Assembly (NCBI GenBank): GCA_028690155.1
Contig: JAQVBU010000005.1
Coordinates: 62,001 to 126,000, forward strand
Length of the DNA stretch: 64,000 nucleotides
DNA from: Alphaproteobacteria bacterium
GTDB taxonomy: Bacteria > Pseudomonadota > Alphaproteobacteria > UBA9219
Direction: 5' to 3'
The notes under the pieces were generated by a model. That model worked only from the letters and a program-made list of their open reading frames with translations, had not been told where the DNA came from and ran no database searches. Positions 18,845-50,423 of this stretch are shown piece after piece. Both the position numbers and the translations under genes were made by a program. The number at the start of each line of letters is the position of its first letter. Positions within the stretch are counted from its first letter, which is position 1.

Positions 18845-18921
18845 GTCCCCGTAGCTCAGCTGGATAGAGCACAAGTTTCCTAAACTTGGGGCCACGTGTT
18901 CGAATCACGTCGGGGACGCCA
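18845..18921 (+). tRNA. tRNA-Arg (anticodon CCT)
   Basis: A full cloverleaf can be drawn. The acceptor stem is GTCCCCG paired with CGGGGAC; the D-arm is GCTC...GAGC; the anticodon stem is CAAGT/ACTTG around the loop TTCCTAA, giving anticodon CCT (reads AGG); the T-arm is ACGTG-TTCGAAT-CACGT. A discriminator G and an encoded CCA follow. An intrinsic terminator begins directly after the CCA. Such tRNA genes are common integration sites, but no integrase is visible beside it. Confidence 0.96.
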
Positions 18922-32205: not shown

Positions 32206-33402
32206 ATGTCTCTTTCTATGGCTCGGGATATTTTTAACGGGTGGCTTTTCAGAGCCGGAAATCCGGACAGGGCCTTGTTCCGCCTTGTAGACGAATTAAA
32301 CAAAATCGGCGCCGACTATGCGGTGTTAGATCCCCAGAACAAAAAAACCAACGAGGAGATGAAGCGGATTGTTTTCTGGCGATATCTCTCTCGTTGGCTG
32401 TCGGTCGCTTTGGAAATTGAGGGCAAGTTGCAGGAAGGAAGAAGACCGGGCGACAAAGAAAGCGCGTTGTCGGTTTCGTCTTTCAGGGGCCTTTCGAAAA
32501 AGGACTTGGGACTGTTTCTTTGCGCGATGAACGCCTTTTTTTTCCTCGACGACAAAGCGGGTGGACGAAGCGCTCTTTCCAAGGAAACTCTTAGACGTTG
32601 GGAAGCCATGCTTCAAAATCCCGAAGAGACTTTTTATAAGGTTTTATCGATATATCTTGATGACGTTGCGTTGTTGGAAAACGAAAAAAGACGCTGGAAC
32701 AAAAACGAAACGTGGCAAACGAAACAATATGTCTTTTCTGACGAAGCCTTAGGAGCGCTGCTGAAACAAAGATTGTTGTGGTCCCCATCAGAACAAGAAG
32801 AGCTTCTACAACGACAAGAGATTCCACAACGACAAGAGATTCCACAATGGGTTACGCCTGATCAGGCACTTAGCCCCGCTAACGCCTTCAAAAAGGGCGT
32901 TGATTCAATATGTTGTTCAACTTCTTTCTGTTGCCAAGAAGAAAACACGGAAGAAAATCCTTTATCGTCTCAGGACGAGGAAGCCGTTGCTTTGCCCGAA
33001 GAGCGAACATCGGAAGCGGTTGTGCCAGAAAACCAGACAGACGATTCAAGCCACCAAATTGCTGTCGAGGTTGTTCCTCAAAAAAGAGGGCGCGGTCGTC
33101 CGCTGGGCTCGAAAAACAAGCCCAAGGAGACGGGGGAGCAAGGTAAGGATTCTGAGCCTAAGAAGAAGCCCCGCGGTCGTCCGCCGGGCTCGAAAAACAA
33201 GCCCAAGGATGAGCCTAAACGACGCCGCGGTCGTCCGCTGGGCTCGAAAAACAAGTCCAAGAAGCTGGAGTCCCGCGAAGAGTCTTCGGTGTTGGATCAA
33301 AAGACCTTATTTCAAGAAATGAATGAGATAAGAGAAATATGCGGCGTTCCGACAAGAAGCGTTGTACTCCGCGAAAAACGACTGGGAGCTCCGTCGCTTT
33401 AA
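32206..33402 (+). CDS. AT-hook protein with three RGRP motifs, function unknown
   Basis: A 398-residue protein. Residues 20-75 (RLVDELNKIGADYAVLDP, then EEMKRIVFWRYLSRWLSVAL) and the following helices are related to the next gene downstream. A low-complexity acidic linker with a tandem QRQEIP repeat (near residue 202) follows. The C-terminal third has three near-identical AT-hooks at about 295, 322 and 340, each (K/R)xRGRPxGSKNKxK. These should grip the minor groove of AT-rich DNA. The ATG follows GAGGAA at seven bases. There is no signal or membrane segment. A nucleoid-associated or regulatory role is likely by motif, but no target is known. Confidence 0.85.
   Translation: MSLSMARDIFNGWLFRAGNPDRALFRLVDELNKIGADYAVLDPQNKKTNEEMKRIVFWRYLSRWLSVALEIEGKLQEGRRPGDKESALSVSSFRGLSKKDLGLFLCAMNAFFFLDDKAGGRSALSKETLRRWEAMLQNPEETFYKVLSIYLDDVALLENEKRRWNKNETWQTKQYVFSDEALGALLKQRLLWSPSEQEELLQRQEIPQRQEIPQWVTPDQALSPANAFKKGVDSICCSTSFCCQEENTEENPLSSQDEEAVALPEERTSEAVVPENQTDDSSHQIAVEVVPQKRGRGRPLGSKNKPKETGEQGKDSEPKKKPRGRPPGSKNKPKDEPKRRRGRPLGSKNKSKKLESREESSVLDQKTLFQEMNEIREICGVPTRSVVLREKRLGAPSL
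32808..32843 (+). repeat. Perfect 18-base tandem duplication
   Basis: Two identical copies of acaacgacaagagattcc stand head to tail (32808-32825, 32826-32843), followed by four bases of a third. They add six residues (QRQEIP) to the linker of the AT-hook protein and do not change frame, so copy number may vary between strains. Confidence 0.9.
33091..33262 (+). repeat. Three near-identical AT-hook coding repeats
   Basis: Near-identical units of about 37 bases begin at 33091, 33172 and 33226. They differ by a few bases and encode the hook RGRPxGSKNKxK. The near-identity at DNA level, not only in protein, points to recent duplication or gene conversion. Spacing is uneven (81 and 54 bases), so this is not a CRISPR-like array. 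Confidence 0.85.
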
Positions 33403-33430
33403 TAACACTCCGAAAGCCGTCCTTACGGCA

Positions 33431-33489
33431 AAAATGAATCATTTTTGACAACATTAGGCATAAAATGAATCATTTTTAGCAACATTAGA
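33431..33489. promoter_or_regulatory. Paired operator-like palindromes
   Basis: Two copies of a 28-base sequence start at 33431 and 33462, a 31-base period. Each begins with AAAATGA-A-TCATTTT, a perfect 15-base palindrome around one central base, and ends in CAACATTAG. The period is close to three helical turns, so two dimers would bind the same face of the DNA. They lie between the AT-hook gene and its paralogue, directly upstream of a promoter-like sequence. Confidence 0.75.
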
Positions 33490-33490
33490 A

Positions 33491-33517
33491 TTGTAACGGG
33501 ATAATTTTCTTTATACT
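33491..33517 (+). promoter_or_regulatory. Candidate promoter for the AT-hook paralogue gene
   Basis: TTGTAA (33491-33496) and TATACT (33512-33517) resemble -35 and -10 boxes, with a short 15-base spacer. The gene starts 37 bases later. The paired palindromes abut the upstream edge, so a protein bound there could contact or block RNA polymerase. The short spacer makes the call tentative. Confidence 0.4.
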
Positions 33518-33553
33518 CTCGAAAAGTTTTTTTTTAAAACAGGGGGTAACAAG

Positions 33554-34141
33554 ATGGAAACGTTAGGACCAACGTTAGTATCAATGGGGTGTGGAGAACA
33601 AGGACGTAGGTGTTTTGAAGAAGAATTAAGGGAAGGGGCAAGGAAAGAATATGGGCTTCTTTGTGATCCGGCCCATACCCATTCTATCGAAATCCATTAT
33701 TCAAATCTTACTCGTCTAGTAGATGAGTTAGGCGGCGATTACAGTTTCCTTTCTGAAGGCATTTTTCCTTCCGAAGCAACGAAACAAATTGTGGAAAGGC
33801 ATTATGTCCGTGGCCATCTTCGTGCTGCGGCGGAGCTTTACTGCAACAAGCTTCCCTGTTCACGCTATGAAAGCCCTAACACGGTTGCCGCCATTGATTG
33901 CCATCTGGGAATTGTACACGCAACTTATAATGACTTTGCAGCGTTCCTGAGGGAAGAGCCTTTTAGCATCCCTGGCCTTGGGGCCGAGGAAGTCAAAGCG
34001 AGGCTTGCACACTATCGCAAACCCGTCTTTCCCACGCCCCTCCAAGAAAGCGAAGGGCTAGACGCGGCTGTGCCCACGAACATAATAAGACCGCAAGACA
34101 TTGTCCACGCTTCTTTCTATAAAAATCTAATGCATGGATAA
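33554..34141 (+). CDS. Paralogue of the AT-hook protein N-terminal domain, lacking AT-hooks
   Basis: A 195-residue soluble protein. Residues 50-98 (TRLVDELGGDYSFLSEG, EATKQIVERHYVRGHLRAAAEL) align with residues 20-75 of the AT-hook protein encoded just upstream, and the following segments show weaker similarity (HATYNDFAAFL, GAEEVKARLAHYR). It has no AT-hooks or basic tail, so it might pair with the larger protein or antagonise it. The ATG follows AGGGGG. Its end overlaps the end of pgeF by 15 bases, tail to tail. I do not recognise the family; it may be a lineage-specific domain. Confidence 0.75.
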   Translation: METLGPTLVSMGCGEQGRRCFEEELREGARKEYGLLCDPAHTHSIEIHYSNLTRLVDELGGDYSFLSEGIFPSEATKQIVERHYVRGHLRAAAELYCNKLPCSRYESPNTVAAIDCHLGIVHATYNDFAAFLREEPFSIPGLGAEEVKARLAHYRKPVFPTPLQESEGLDAAVPTNIIRPQDIVHASFYKNLMHG

Positions 34142-34903
34142 GCCCGAAACAAGGCTGCCTTCCCGCGCCTTATGGCGTTGGGTTGCATAACGATGACTAA
34201 AGAAACGTTTGGGGTCGGCGTAGGTATCTCCCAAGCTTGGAAGAACGTTCCCGACCCCAAAAACGTTCAGTTGGCTTACAATATAACCAGACAAATCAAA
34301 TAGATATTTGTCTTTCTTTATAGATTGCTTAAAGAAAAGTTCGTTGCCCGAATTTTGAGCAAAAAACGGAACGGAAAAAGATTTATCCACTTCATAAGAC
34401 TCTTGGGCGATGCACGGCCCCAGCGCGGCAACGATATTCTTACGACGAGCACCTCGTTTCTCCATGGCTTCGAGAACATTGCCCAAAATACCACCCAAAG
34501 CGCCCCGCCAACCCGCATGTGCGGCACCGATTACACCGGCTTCGGCGTCGGCCAACAAAACAGGGGCGCAATCCGCTGTCATGATCCCCAAAACAAGTCC
34601 CGGCCTGTCGGTAACCATGCCGTCCGCCGCCGGAGCCTCGCGAAAAGACCACGGCTCGGATACATAAACGACCGTCGGCGAATGAACCTGCCGACAGCAT
34701 AAAACTTGGGGGGAAGGAACACCGAAAAAAGAGCCGATTCTTTCCCGCCAAGGAGCCGAATCCGGTTCGTCCTGTAAAGGCGACAACCCGGCTCTGCCCC
34801 AAGAACGACCGAAAAAAGCATGGCGCACGTTTTCTAACGCATTCAAATTGCTTGCAAAAAGAATATCGGTGGGATCGGCGTCGAGAAAGGACATGATGAA
34901 CAT
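34127..34903 (-). CDS. pgeF: Peptidoglycan editing factor PgeF (laccase-domain family)
   Basis: A 258-residue member of the YfiH/DUF152 family, which removes wrongly incorporated residues during peptidoglycan synthesis. Typical features are RQVHSPTVVYV, ADGMVTDRPGLVLGIMTADC with the Cys/His metal site, GVIGAAHAGWRGALGGIL, LGPCIAQESYEV, and the C-terminal SHRYATQRHKAREGSLVSG. The ATG at 34903 follows CGGAAG; an ATG at 34894 is also possible. The gene is divergent from hpnC. In many Alphaproteobacteria pgeF instead sits beside lgt, so this context is different. Confidence 0.92.
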   Translation of the reverse strand: MFIMSFLDADPTDILFASNLNALENVRHAFFGRSWGRAGLSPLQDEPDSAPWRERIGSFFGVPSPQVLCCRQVHSPTVVYVSEPWSFREAPAADGMVTDRPGLVLGIMTADCAPVLLADAEAGVIGAAHAGWRGALGGILGNVLEAMEKRGARRKNIVAALGPCIAQESYEVDKSFSVPFFAQNSGNELFFKQSIKKDKYLFDLSGYIVSQLNVFGVGNVLPSLGDTYADPKRFFSHRYATQRHKAREGSLVSGLSMH

Positions 34904-35045
34904 CTTGAAAAACTTCCGAAACAACAGGATAAGCGTAGTTTCCGTGCCGTTCAAAGGGTTTCGCAAAAGGCCGTTTGCCTTCCTTTGTCGCGTACAATGA
35001 AAAACAGAGAAAAAATCCGGCTAACGTCCTTTTGCAGGCAGAATA

Positions 35046-38574: not shown

Positions 38575-38742
38575 TGTTTGTTCTCTCCTGATGATTTGTT
38601 GGCGGGAAGAGATCTCCTTCGGAATCGAAAAAACCCCAAAACAAATCCCCGAAACGGCGAATCGTTAACCACTAGATTTTGTGGCTTACGAGATAAAGGT
38701 CATACCACGGAGGCCGAATCGATTCTATAGAACACAGTATTT

Positions 38743-38876
38743 TGTGGATAAATTGTGGGTATCGCCTATATGTTGTTTGTTAACAATCTGAATCGTTTAC
38801 CATTTATTAATTTATACACAGACCCTCTTCCTTCCTCTGAGGGCTTAAAGCGCTCTTTTTTGGAAAGATATCCACA
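38743..38876. promoter_or_regulatory. Cluster of DnaA-box-like sites
   Basis: 38743-38751 is TGTGGATAA, a perfect TTATCCACA box on the minus strand. 38812-38820 is TTATACACA, which fits the relaxed TTWTNCACA consensus. 38868-38876 is ATATCCACA, one mismatch. They flank the AT-rich core. A fourth, poorer match (TGTGGGTAT) lies just after the first. Confidence 0.65.
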
Positions 38877-38898
38877 ACTTTCTTGATCAATTTTTCAC

Positions 38899-38919
38899 GA
38901 ATCAGACTCGATTCGAGTC
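38899..38919. promoter_or_regulatory. Four GANTC (CcrM-type) sites in 21 bases
   Basis: GAATC, GACTC, GATTC and GAGTC follow each other at 38899, 38905, 38910 and 38915, the last three back to back. The last three also form the 15-base palindrome GACTCGATTCGAGTC around a central T. GANTC is the CcrM methylation site of Alphaproteobacteria. Confidence 0.85.
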
Positions 38920-39228
38920 GCCATGGCGTGTCACATGCCGATGTTGGCTAGCTTTGCGGCAACGTATAACAGCATCATTGTGGTGACGTTCAACGGACGT
39001 CAGGGCGGAAAAATTCAGAGCGACGCATCCCCTCTGATAGGGAAAATAGCAACGGCAAGCCTTTCAAAAAGGAAAAGCGCGCTGAAATCATAAAAAAAGG
39101 GACGCCATTAAAATAAGAAGTTGGCGATTTTATTCGCCCAAACGCTTTGTCTTTTTGAAATACCTTTGACAAGGTGCTTTTCCTGTCGAAAATGGCGGTA
39201 TTCTTCACGTTTTTCAGGGAGAGCTTTC

Positions 39229-40122
39229 ATGTTCAAGGGTGTCTATACCGCTATCGTCACGCCTTTCAAAGACGGAAAACTTGATGAAGATGCCTTGTGC
39301 CAATTCATCGAATGGCAAATTAACGAAGGCGTTCAGGGGCTCATTGTTGCAGGAACGACGGGTGAAGCGCCGACGCTCTCAACCGAGGAATACACGCGCC
39401 TGATCGAGCTTTCCATCAAAACAAACCGTGGACGCGTTGCCGTTATCGCGGGAACCGGGACGAATTCGACCCAAAAAACGATAGACACGACGCGCTTGGC
39501 CAAAGATCTCGGCGCCGACGGCGCGTTGGTCGTCATGCCCTACTACAACAAGCCGACGCAGGAAGGCATGCGCCGCCATTTCGAAGCCGTGGCCGATGCC
39601 GTCGATCTTCCCATCCTGATCTACAACGTGCCGAGCCGCTGCATCGTCGACATGAGCGTCGACACGATGGCCGCCTTGGCGACGCATAAAAACATCGTCG
39701 GCGTCAAAGATGCGACCGACGACCTGTCGCGACCCGTCCTGACTCGCCGCGCATGCGGTCCCGATTTTTGCCTGATGACGGGCGAAAACGGCACGTTCGG
39801 CGCCTTTCTCGCTCAAGGCGGCGACGGAGGCATTCTGGTTACCTCAAACGTCACCCCCAAAGCCTTGCGTATGATGTACGATGCTTGGCTCGCCAAGGAC
39901 ATGGACACGTTCTCGCGTATTAATTTGGCTTTGGCTCCCTTGCACAAGGCCCTTTTCTGCGAGTCCAATCCGTCGCCTGTTAAGTATGCCGTCTCCCGGC
40001 TCAATCTTTGTAAAAACGAGCTACGGCAACCCCTCGTCCAAGCTTCCAAAACGGCATGCGAAAAAATCGATGCCGCTCTTCAGATTGCAGCCGATGCCGG
40101 CTTTCTTAAGCTTGCCTCGTAA
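39229..40122 (+). CDS. dapA: 4-hydroxy-tetrahydrodipicolinate synthase
   Basis: DapA, 297 residues, a class I aldolase-fold enzyme that condenses pyruvate with aspartate semialdehyde to begin the diaminopimelate/lysine branch. It has GVYTAIVTPFKDGKLDEDAL, VAGTTGEAPTLSTEEY, VVMPYYNKPTQEGMRRHFEA, YNVPSRC with the catalytic Tyr, IVGVKDATDD with the Schiff-base Lys, and the C-terminal LCKNELRQPLV. The ATG at 39229 follows AGGGAGAG. It faces the DnaA/GANTC region. The next enzyme, dapB, is 16 kb away. smpB, often next to dapA in this class, is not here. Confidence 0.97.
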   Translation: MFKGVYTAIVTPFKDGKLDEDALCQFIEWQINEGVQGLIVAGTTGEAPTLSTEEYTRLIELSIKTNRGRVAVIAGTGTNSTQKTIDTTRLAKDLGADGALVVMPYYNKPTQEGMRRHFEAVADAVDLPILIYNVPSRCIVDMSVDTMAALATHKNIVGVKDATDDLSRPVLTRRACGPDFCLMTGENGTFGAFLAQGGDGGILVTSNVTPKALRMMYDAWLAKDMDTFSRINLALAPLHKALFCESNPSPVKYAVSRLNLCKNELRQPLVQASKTACEKIDAALQIAADAGFLKLAS

Positions 40123-48386: not shown

Positions 48387-50423
48387 ATGTCGAAAAAATA
48401 TAAACGTACCTCTCTTCTTGATCCAAAGCTCTTGCGCTCGTCAGCACGGCTTGCCTTTGTCAAACTGAAGCCGACCCTTCTGGCTCAAAATCCCATCATG
48501 TTCACCGTGGGGATTGCCAGTCTGTTGGCGACCGTTCTTATGATACGCGACCTTTCGAATGGAACGTTTTCGCCTATCGATGCGCAGATAACGGTTTGGC
48601 TGTGGATCACCGTCCTGTTCGGCAACTTTGCCGAAGCCGTCGCCGAGGGACGCGGCAAAGCTGAAGCTGACAGCCTGCGCCGGAAAAAAATCGAAACAAT
48701 GGCTAAGAAAGTTTCGAGCGTAGACGACAAGGCGTACAAGACCGTTCCGGCGACCCAGCTTGCCATAGGCGACTTGGTCCTCGTCGAAGCCGGCGATATC
48801 ATTCCGGGAGACGGCGACGTCGTTCATGGAATCGCCACGGTCGATGAATCGTCAATTACGGGGGAATCCGCCCCCGTCATTCGTGAATCGAACAGCGACC
48901 GTTCGGCGGTGACTGGCGGCACGCGTATCATTTCTGATAGCATCATCGTGCAAATCGGCACGAATCCGGGCGAGTCTTTTCTTGACCGAATGATCGGCCT
49001 TGTCGAAGGCGCGCGGCGTCAAAAGACTCCCAATGAAGTTGCTTTGAATATCTTTCTTGTCGGCCTCACGCTTATTTTTTTGATCGTCTGCGTAACACTG
49101 CAAGGTTTTGCCGCGTTCAGCGGCGGTTTGTTGCCGGTTATCTATCTGATCGCCTTGTTCATCGCGCTCATTCCAACGACCATCGGCGGTTTGCTGTCCG
49201 CGATCCGGATTGCGGGAATGGACCGGCTCGTGAGATTCAACGTCATCACGAAGTCCGGACGCGCCGTCGAAGCGGCGGGCGACATCGACACGCTTCTTTT
49301 GGATAAAACGGGCACAGTAACGCTGGGCAATCGCATGGCGAGCGCTTTTATTCCTGTGAACGGCATGCGCGAAAAAGACGTGGCCGAAGCGGCCTTTTTG
49401 TCGTCGCTTGCGGACGACACACCGGAAGGCAAATCGATTGTCCGTCTGGCGGAAAAGAAGTTCAATTTTCATGGCGAAAAGACGCGTACGGAAGGGATGC
49501 GCTTTCTGGCGTTCAGCGCGCAATCCCGCATGAGCGGCGTGGATACGGAAAACTATTCGATCCGCAAAGGCGCACCGGATTCCATCTTCTCACTCTGCGG
49601 CGGCGGGCGAAGCGCCGCTATCGAAGAGGCGATCGAGCGCGTTGCCAAGACCGGCGGCACGCCTTTGCTTGTGGCCAAAGACAAACGGATTTTGGGCATC
49701 ATCCATTTGAAGGACATTATCAAGCCCGGCATTCACGAGCGTTTCGCGACTCTTCGACGGATGGGCATCCGCACCGTCATGATTACGGGGGATAACCCTG
49801 TGACCGCCGCCGCGATTTCGGCCGAAGCCGGGGTGGACGACTTTTTGGCCGAAGCCACGCCCGAGATGAAGCTTAACTTGATCCGCAAGGAACAGGCCGA
49901 GGGCAAGTTGGTGGCCATGTGCGGCGACGGGTCGAACGACGCGCCAGCGTTGGCTCAAGCCGACGTAGGCCTTGCCATGAACACAGGCACCATGGCCGCG
50001 CGCGAAGCCGGAAACATGATCGACTTGGACAACGATCCCACCAAGCTGATCGAAGTCGTGATGATCGGCAAACAGCTTCTTATGAGCCGGGGCACGCTTA
50101 CGACTTTTTCCATCGCTAATGATATCGCCAAATATTTTGCTATTCTCCCGGCCCTTTTCATCGATATTTATCCGACCATGGGGACACTGAACATCATGCA
50201 TCTTCAAAGCCCCGAAAGCGCCATTCTCTCGGCTATCATTTTTAACGCCTTAATCTTGGTTGCCCTCATCCCTCTGGCGCTGCGCGGCGTCCGGTTTTCA
50301 CCGGGACCCGCCAACCTTGTCCTGCGCCGCAATCTTTTGATTTATGGCCTCGGAGGCATTCTTGTTCCCTTTATCGGAATCAAAATTATCGACATGATCG
50401 TTTCGGTTTTCATGGGAGGCTAG
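48387..50423 (+). CDS. kdpB: K+-transporting ATPase P-type subunit KdpB
   Basis: KdpB, 678 residues, the P-type ATPase subunit. The phosphorylated Asp is in [15 protein letters not shown] near residue 306. The A-domain motif is [13 protein letters not shown], the nucleotide region [13 protein letters not shown] precedes [19 protein letters not shown], and the hinge [20 protein letters not shown] follows. About seven membrane helices are visible. The length is normal. kdpC starts 3 bases after the stop. Confidence 0.97.

Follow-up and report, generated by a model that had tools for sequence, protein, structure and literature searches.

In Caulobacter, DnaA is described as an activator of gcrA and CtrA as its repressor (PMC2877005, PMC8959179). 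In the first of these reports, the gcrA gene of Caulobacter shows no significant DnaA motif, and the DnaA-GcrA-CtrA system is described as not conserved throughout the alphaproteobacteria (PMC2877005). In Agrobacterium tumefaciens, the gcrA promoter is dense in GANTC sites and is less active when methylated, and no NrdR input is described there in the available part of the report (PMC11514494). Promoters of nrd genes controlled by NrdR carry palindromes in helical phase around the promoter, and DnaA also acts on E. coli nrdA (PMC12051234, PMC9110341, PMC12176259); the NrdR boxes are 15-16 bp apart in most bacteria (PMC12051234), and the dATP/ATP-loaded NrdR tetramer spans about three helix turns (PMC9110341). 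An NrdR box outside the ribonucleotide reductase (RNR) genes is described at topA of Pseudomonas aeruginosa (PMC4409342).

The locus described here can be set beside each of these. Like the Agrobacterium promoter, the DNA before its gcrA gene is dense in GANTC sites, and unlike what is described for that promoter, it carries NrdR-like boxes. In contrast to Caulobacter gcrA, its DnaA boxes hold fixed places throughout the family. Like the nrd promoters, it has palindromes in helical phase around the presumed promoter, but the target is a cell-cycle regulator and the palindromes are mainly spaced by 61-63 bp instead of the classical 31 bp. The likeness to topA lies in an NrdR box outside the RNR genes, although at topA there is a single box, NrdR activates, and no cell-cycle gene is involved. 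We consider it probable that positions 38600-38960 of the window (the whole stretch of 64,000 bases that was analyzed) are the control region of gcrA, with a promoter flanked by two putative NrdR boxes, N2 and N3, and with DnaA boxes upstream, because the geometry is fixed in 19 family loci and because N3 and N2 lead the ranking by an NrdR matrix. Judged by its motifs, this control region appears to combine DnaA, GANTC, and NrdR signals; the earlier note on this DNA did not include the NrdR-like palindromes.

The window is part of contig C27 of a 2.1-Mb draft genome in 43 contigs. The features of the gcrA locus are listed in Table 1. The gcrA product also matches the NCBIfam GcrA model NF050816 with an E value of 1e-34, at a score below the curated cut-off (120 of 280 bits), and GcrA is present in 35 of 40 genomes, this one included. 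An Rfam search of the window had a tRNA at 18845 as its sole match, so a known RNA element upstream of gcrA was dropped as an explanation. For comparison, the order comprised 34 genomes (25 of the family, counting our own, and 9 others). The first counts of gcrA loci used 19 family loci and 7 other order loci; G040, G012, and G009 of the family and G024 and G028 from the rest of the order were added later as held-back loci, the last two having gcrA upstream regions that look alike, with identical positions and scores. Left out of the order set were G006, which has only the end of gcrA at a contig edge, and G018 and G022, which gave no match, and the class-level loci L031 and L032 were excluded from the gcrA counts. 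The 76 other alphaproteobacterial loci are 80 named loci minus four order duplicates (L069, L070, L075, L120). Because the loci are related, none of the locus counts given below are independent.

Table 1. Features at the gcrA locus, in window coordinates.
Feature	Position	Strand	Remarks
gcrA, cell-cycle sigma-70 cofactor, 175 aa	38047..38574	-	PF07750 at 127 bits
N3, NrdR-like 16-bp palindrome	38669..38684	-	top matrix score of the window, 20.6 bits
TGGTATG, extended -10-like motif, presumed gcrA promoter	38701..38707	-	TGGTAT in 16/19 family loci
GAATCGATTC, two abutting GANTC, presumed -35 region	38716..38725	-	GAATCGATTC in 10/19 family loci
N2, NrdR-like 16-bp palindrome, overlaps perfect DnaA box C	38732..38747	-	second matrix score, 15.8 bits
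DnaA box C, perfect, TTATCCACA	38743..38751	-	five bases common with N2
N1, third palindrome (weak), 31 bp from N2	38763..38778	-	tentative
CtrA-like site, TTAA-N7-TAAAC	38795..38810	-	tentative
DnaA box B, one mismatch, TTATACACA	38812..38820	+	several relatives have no box here at one mismatch
DnaA box A, one mismatch, ATATCCACA	38868..38876	+	a perfect box in most of the family
GANTC cluster, four sites in 21 bp, upstream of box A	38899..38919	.	similar cluster in G009; not family-wide
dapA-like gene (DHDPS-family), divergent neighbor of gcrA	39229-40122	+	

The earlier note had seen DnaA boxes around an AT-rich stretch upstream of gcrA, and this was borne out, with one perfect box and two boxes of one mismatch in a region whose G+C is 0.43 over 38600-38960 and 0.28 over 38740-38820. 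As in a DnaA-regulated promoter, the boxes, which are predicted by sequence, hold fixed places. At one mismatch or fewer, a DnaA box is found at the place of box C in 19/19 family loci and at the place of box A in all 18 family loci with enough sequence. Both box A and the N2 arm were found in 17 family loci, and they are 129-130 bp apart in 14 of these (119, 131 or 118, and 132 bp in the remaining three). A perfect DnaA box occurs within 300 bp of gcrA in 23 of the 76 other alphaproteobacterial loci, as against 0/216 downstream stretches and 6/3040 shuffles of the 76 upstream regions. The site at 38795..38810 was named by what we take to be the CtrA consensus; a check for the CtrA-type TTAA-N7-TTAA at gcrA found only a degenerate form, in 9/19 family loci.

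Three DnaA boxes, an AT-rich core, GANTC sites, and a CtrA-like site within 300 bp could also make up a chromosomal origin, the alternative raised in the earlier note, where DnaA would bind boxes A-C and melt the core. The grouping of DnaA boxes next to AT-rich DNA in 38600-38960 is indeed what an oriC would have, but the GC skew flips the wrong way: in the window it is weakly positive up to ~34 kb and negative beyond, which is the sign of a terminus, and the DnaA boxes hold their places relative to the gcrA start. In a skew survey that sampled part of the draft genome, the minimum was not at gcrA but at C32 near 104 kb, where all 9 of the 5-kb bins sampled between 5 and 105 kb are negative and 9 of 10 between 105 and 240 kb are positive. 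This place, near 104.4 kb, is a better oriC candidate, with two abutting perfect DnaA boxes (C32:104419 and 104428) in a 1-kb stretch of 36% G+C, between a kinase-pyrophosphorylase gene (PF03618) and rho, and with gidA ~4 kb further. On the skew, sampled over part of the genome, and on the C32 candidate we rejected an origin upstream of gcrA, which we regard as highly improbable; the DNA before gcrA is most likely a strongly conserved control region rather than a replication origin.

The likely true oriC is L057 9290-9870 (G000:C32, ~104.3-104.9 kb), which is AT-rich and has the tandem perfect DnaA boxes and a local skew minimum. The change from positive to negative skew at ~33000-35000 of the window is terminus-like, as near gcrA in G003, where the flip is ~20 kb from gcrA; in G029, gcrA is inside a positive skew arm (18 readable sampled stretches). 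We suggest that gcrA may be close to the terminus in this genus.

Nine GANTC sites within about 300 bases, against about one expected, had also been claimed for this region, and the site list, placement trials, and shuffles all confirmed it. The sites (38622, 38659, 38716, 38721, 38790, 38899, 38905, 38910, 38915) span 38622-38919 and form the densest 300-bp stretch of the window, the expectation for 361 bp being ~1.1 (193 sites in 64,000 bases). Random placement of 193 sites gave at least nine in 302 bp in 3/5000 trials, and dinucleotide shuffles of 38600-38960 gave nine in 0/2000 cases (mean 1.97, largest 8). Over the whole window GANTC is depleted, with 193 sites versus a shuffle mean of 300.6. 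A second GANTC cluster, seven sites in ~200 bp, is located at 48829-49029, inside an ORF at 48387-50423.

It is conceivable that the GANTC cluster is itself the functional hub, serving CcrM/GcrA feedback as suggested in the earlier note, which would be compatible with the gcrA control region that we propose. Within the family, GANTC sites average 3.8 per 400 bp before gcrA (18 loci) and 0.9 in the flank (17 loci), and the Agrobacterium promoter is a precedent (PMC11514494). However, the number per 400 bp varies from 1 to 9 between relatives, so we rejected GANTC density as a conserved feature, and the 76 other alphaproteobacterial loci have a mean of 0.80 per 300 bp versus 0.61 in 216 control stretches; a hub of this kind seems doubtful to us. 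By sequence comparison, the stable site of the cluster is the GANTC at the presumed -35, which is found 18 bp before the TGGTAT -10-like motif in 14/19 family loci, and TAGAATC is present in 15/19. The earlier proposal that DnaA and GANTC act on gcrA is thus partly supported: there is conservation in the places of boxes A and C and in the -35 GANTC, but not in the number of GANTC sites. The genome encodes an adenine methylase of CcrM build (N6_N4_Mtase and RAMA), and together with a fixed GANTC at the -10/-35 elements, whose position we infer from the motifs, this would fit methylation control, for which Agrobacterium again offers a precedent.

We place the promoter at the extended -10-like motif, which is found 21-23 bp before N3 in 16/16 of the family loci having TGGTAT; a sigma-70 consensus scan made no call at this position. 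Counted from start to start, N3 follows the motif by 23 bp, and the gcrA ATG is 110 bp further on. The family alignment consensus is CCACAAnATnTwGTGG for N3 and CACAAnATnnnGTGT for N2, the latter having bases in common with box C. From the CCACAA arm of N2 to N3 the distance is 61-63 bp in 16/16 loci where both were found, giving a spacer of 45-47 bp between N2 and N3; the spacer between the weak N1 and N2 is 15 bp, and the NrdR norm is 15-16 bp. N1 is tentative because it scores ~3 bits by the matrix and reaches at least 8 bits in only 2/19 family loci; N3 reaches this score in 17/19, N2 in 15/19, and both do in 13/19. In the 2.1-Mb genome, CACNANATNTNGTG occurs exactly at N3 only, and at one mismatch or fewer it occurs at 24 places, versus 20 for the reversed control.

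The first scan for palindromes used an assumed NrdR consensus, and the later matrix was trained on data. This palindromic matrix was made from 30 sites in nrdJ-like promoters of other genomes, with our own genome excluded; in each training pair, box 1 was taken at a constant offset of 31 bp. Since one training box in two overlaps a DnaA box, the matrix favors the TTGTGG arm. In the window, N3 and N2 are followed by a site of 10.2 bits, and the 63-bp pair of N2 and N3 scores 36.4 versus 7.1 for the next place. N3 outscores all other sites in 287,411 bases of its own genome, including the nrdJ-like box (17.9). The background count of the matrix was 11 in 753,903 positions, the window's own sites included. 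In three 12-kb stretches of E. coli, the best 31/32-bp pair was upstream of nrdA, nrdH, and nrdD; its start is at a distance of 125 bp for nrdA and 120 bp for nrdH, and for nrdD it occupies 162-208 bp before the gene. Among the pairs listed, those at other places scored 6.8 bits or less; the best single matrix site of the nrdA stretch (12.7) was elsewhere than the nrdA promoter pair. Of the 30 RNR-type loci from our own genome and relatives (L201-L230), 21 were scanned, and a 31-bp pair of at least 11 bits was found upstream of 16, the pairless ones being L201, L202, L203, L206, and L215.

Counting matches of at least 12 bits within 300 bp of gcrA, we found one upstream in 19/19 family loci, 7/7 other order loci, and 17/76 other alphaproteobacterial loci, and in 1/216 downstream and 0/72 far-upstream control stretches. 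The difference between 17/76 and 1/216 has a Fisher value of 4e-10; when seven Azospirillum rows are collapsed into one, the value is 1e-6. Dinucleotide shuffles gave matches in 16/3040 cases for the 76 other alphaproteobacterial regions and in 6/760 for the family. The held-back order loci had a match in 5/5 cases, with N2 and N3 both at 8 bits or more in 1/5, which brings the order to 31/31 regions. Outside the order, matches occur in 8/8 loci titled Azospirillum, in some other Rhodospirillales, and in 3/9 Pelagibacteraceae loci, and 59/76 loci had no match, including all but one of L071-L094, many of which are titled Micavibrio. By sequence, the sites at gcrA agree with the specificity of NrdR boxes.

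These matches could also be explained without NrdR, if the gcrA promoter were under DnaA, CtrA, and GANTC methylation only and the palindromes bound some other factor or were related to DnaA. In favor of this, N2 overlaps a DnaA box, as N3 does in several relatives (TTAGCCACA), and in Agrobacterium methylation lowers the activity of a gcrA promoter region that has 6 GANTC in 250 bp (PMC11514494). However, N3 is conserved as a full 16-bp palindrome, unlike a DnaA box, and the same palindrome marks nrd promoters in these genomes, the matrix derived from them recovering the E. coli nrd operons. We find this alternative rather unlikely, and lean slightly toward the view that NrdR directly gates gcrA, in competition with DnaA at overlapping sites, throughout this order of alphaproteobacteria and in some members of other groups.

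At the nrdJ-like gene of this genome, on C31, two NrdR-like sites are spaced by 31 bp, and a DnaA box overlaps the second one. We listed 22 nrdJ-like loci in the family and used 20, L237 and L239 being excluded as split. A DnaA box is over the second NrdR-like site in 16/20 of these promoters, as at N2, and the other four are without the TTGTGGATAA anchor: L238, L240 (a 32-bp pair and no DnaA box), L244 (box 2 outside the trimmed stretch), and L251. A free palindrome scan of 17 of these promoters (without L233, L238, and L241) found the 31-bp pair in 13, our own included, and a 32-bp pair in one more. Compared with the long B12-dependent NrdJ, to which it is related, the gene is shortened. Its product (L170 1042-3129, G000:C31) is a NrdJ-like protein of ~700 aa that is widespread in the family and matches only parts of the long NrdJ, and it is possibly a non-catalytic relative of RNR.

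An intact nrdR is present in the genome, and its product retains D15, R17, and the RRRR motif; nrdR was found in 36/40 genomes, our own included. Upstream of our own nrdR, the matrix found no NrdR-like site (best 1.5 bits), and one of 17 family-level nrdR loci has a site above 12 bits (L181, 16.2), so we rejected NrdR autoregulation as a conserved circuit. A perfect DnaA box is located 18-19 bp before the nrdR start in three of the 17 loci (L068, L192, L195). The RNR encoded on C35 (L149 1321-3150) is only ~30% identical to those found in the genus, and no NrdR pair was found upstream of its gene (best 1.3 bits), unlike most of the relatives' genes; it is possible that this RNR was acquired as a replacement by transfer. 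On C23 at ~91.2-91.8 kb (L152 1166-1785), a stretch between two convergent ORFs has repeated GANTC sites, no Rfam match, and an NrdR-like palindrome of 17.3 bits overlapping a perfect DnaA box, and is perhaps the promoter of an unannotated small RNA.

If the gcrA control region works as its layout suggests, the promoter would consist of TGGTAT as an extended -10 element and of a GANTC at the -35. The presumed start would lie between N2, just upstream, and N3, just downstream, which are six helix turns from each other. All three DnaA boxes would be upstream, with box C and N2 having bases in common. DnaA would activate gcrA at replication start. When DNA synthesis is slow, dATP would accumulate, and NrdR loaded with dATP/ATP would occupy N2 and N3, displace DnaA from box C, and block the promoter, thereby lowering GcrA; the fall of dATP during replication would release NrdR, and DnaA could then act. 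Since NrdR can also activate, as at Pseudomonas topA, we infer the sign of its effect only from this arrangement. N1, though weak, may supply a 31-bp partner for N2, and the fixed GANTC would let CcrM methylation, and possibly GcrA itself, tune gcrA.

To our knowledge, the coupling of bacterial nucleotide supply to the cell-cycle program is little understood. NrdR is known mainly as a regulator of RNR genes. Our literature search, which covered papers under open licenses, found no NrdR input to gcrA in print and nothing related by title on the overlap of NrdR and DnaA boxes or on NrdR in the alphaproteobacterial cell cycle. The idea is testable because Azospirillum strains with such a box can be cultured. 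The conservation of the DnaA boxes also puts a qualification on the published picture of poorly conserved DnaA control at gcrA. A conserved NrdR box at gcrA would link the dATP sensor directly to a master regulator, for which the overlap of N2 with a DnaA box offers a simple switch. If this is true, synthesis of GcrA would depend on both the dATP level and replication start, amounting to a nucleotide-pool checkpoint in the cell cycle that would be shared with the nrdJ-like gene, which bears the same composite NrdR/DnaA site.
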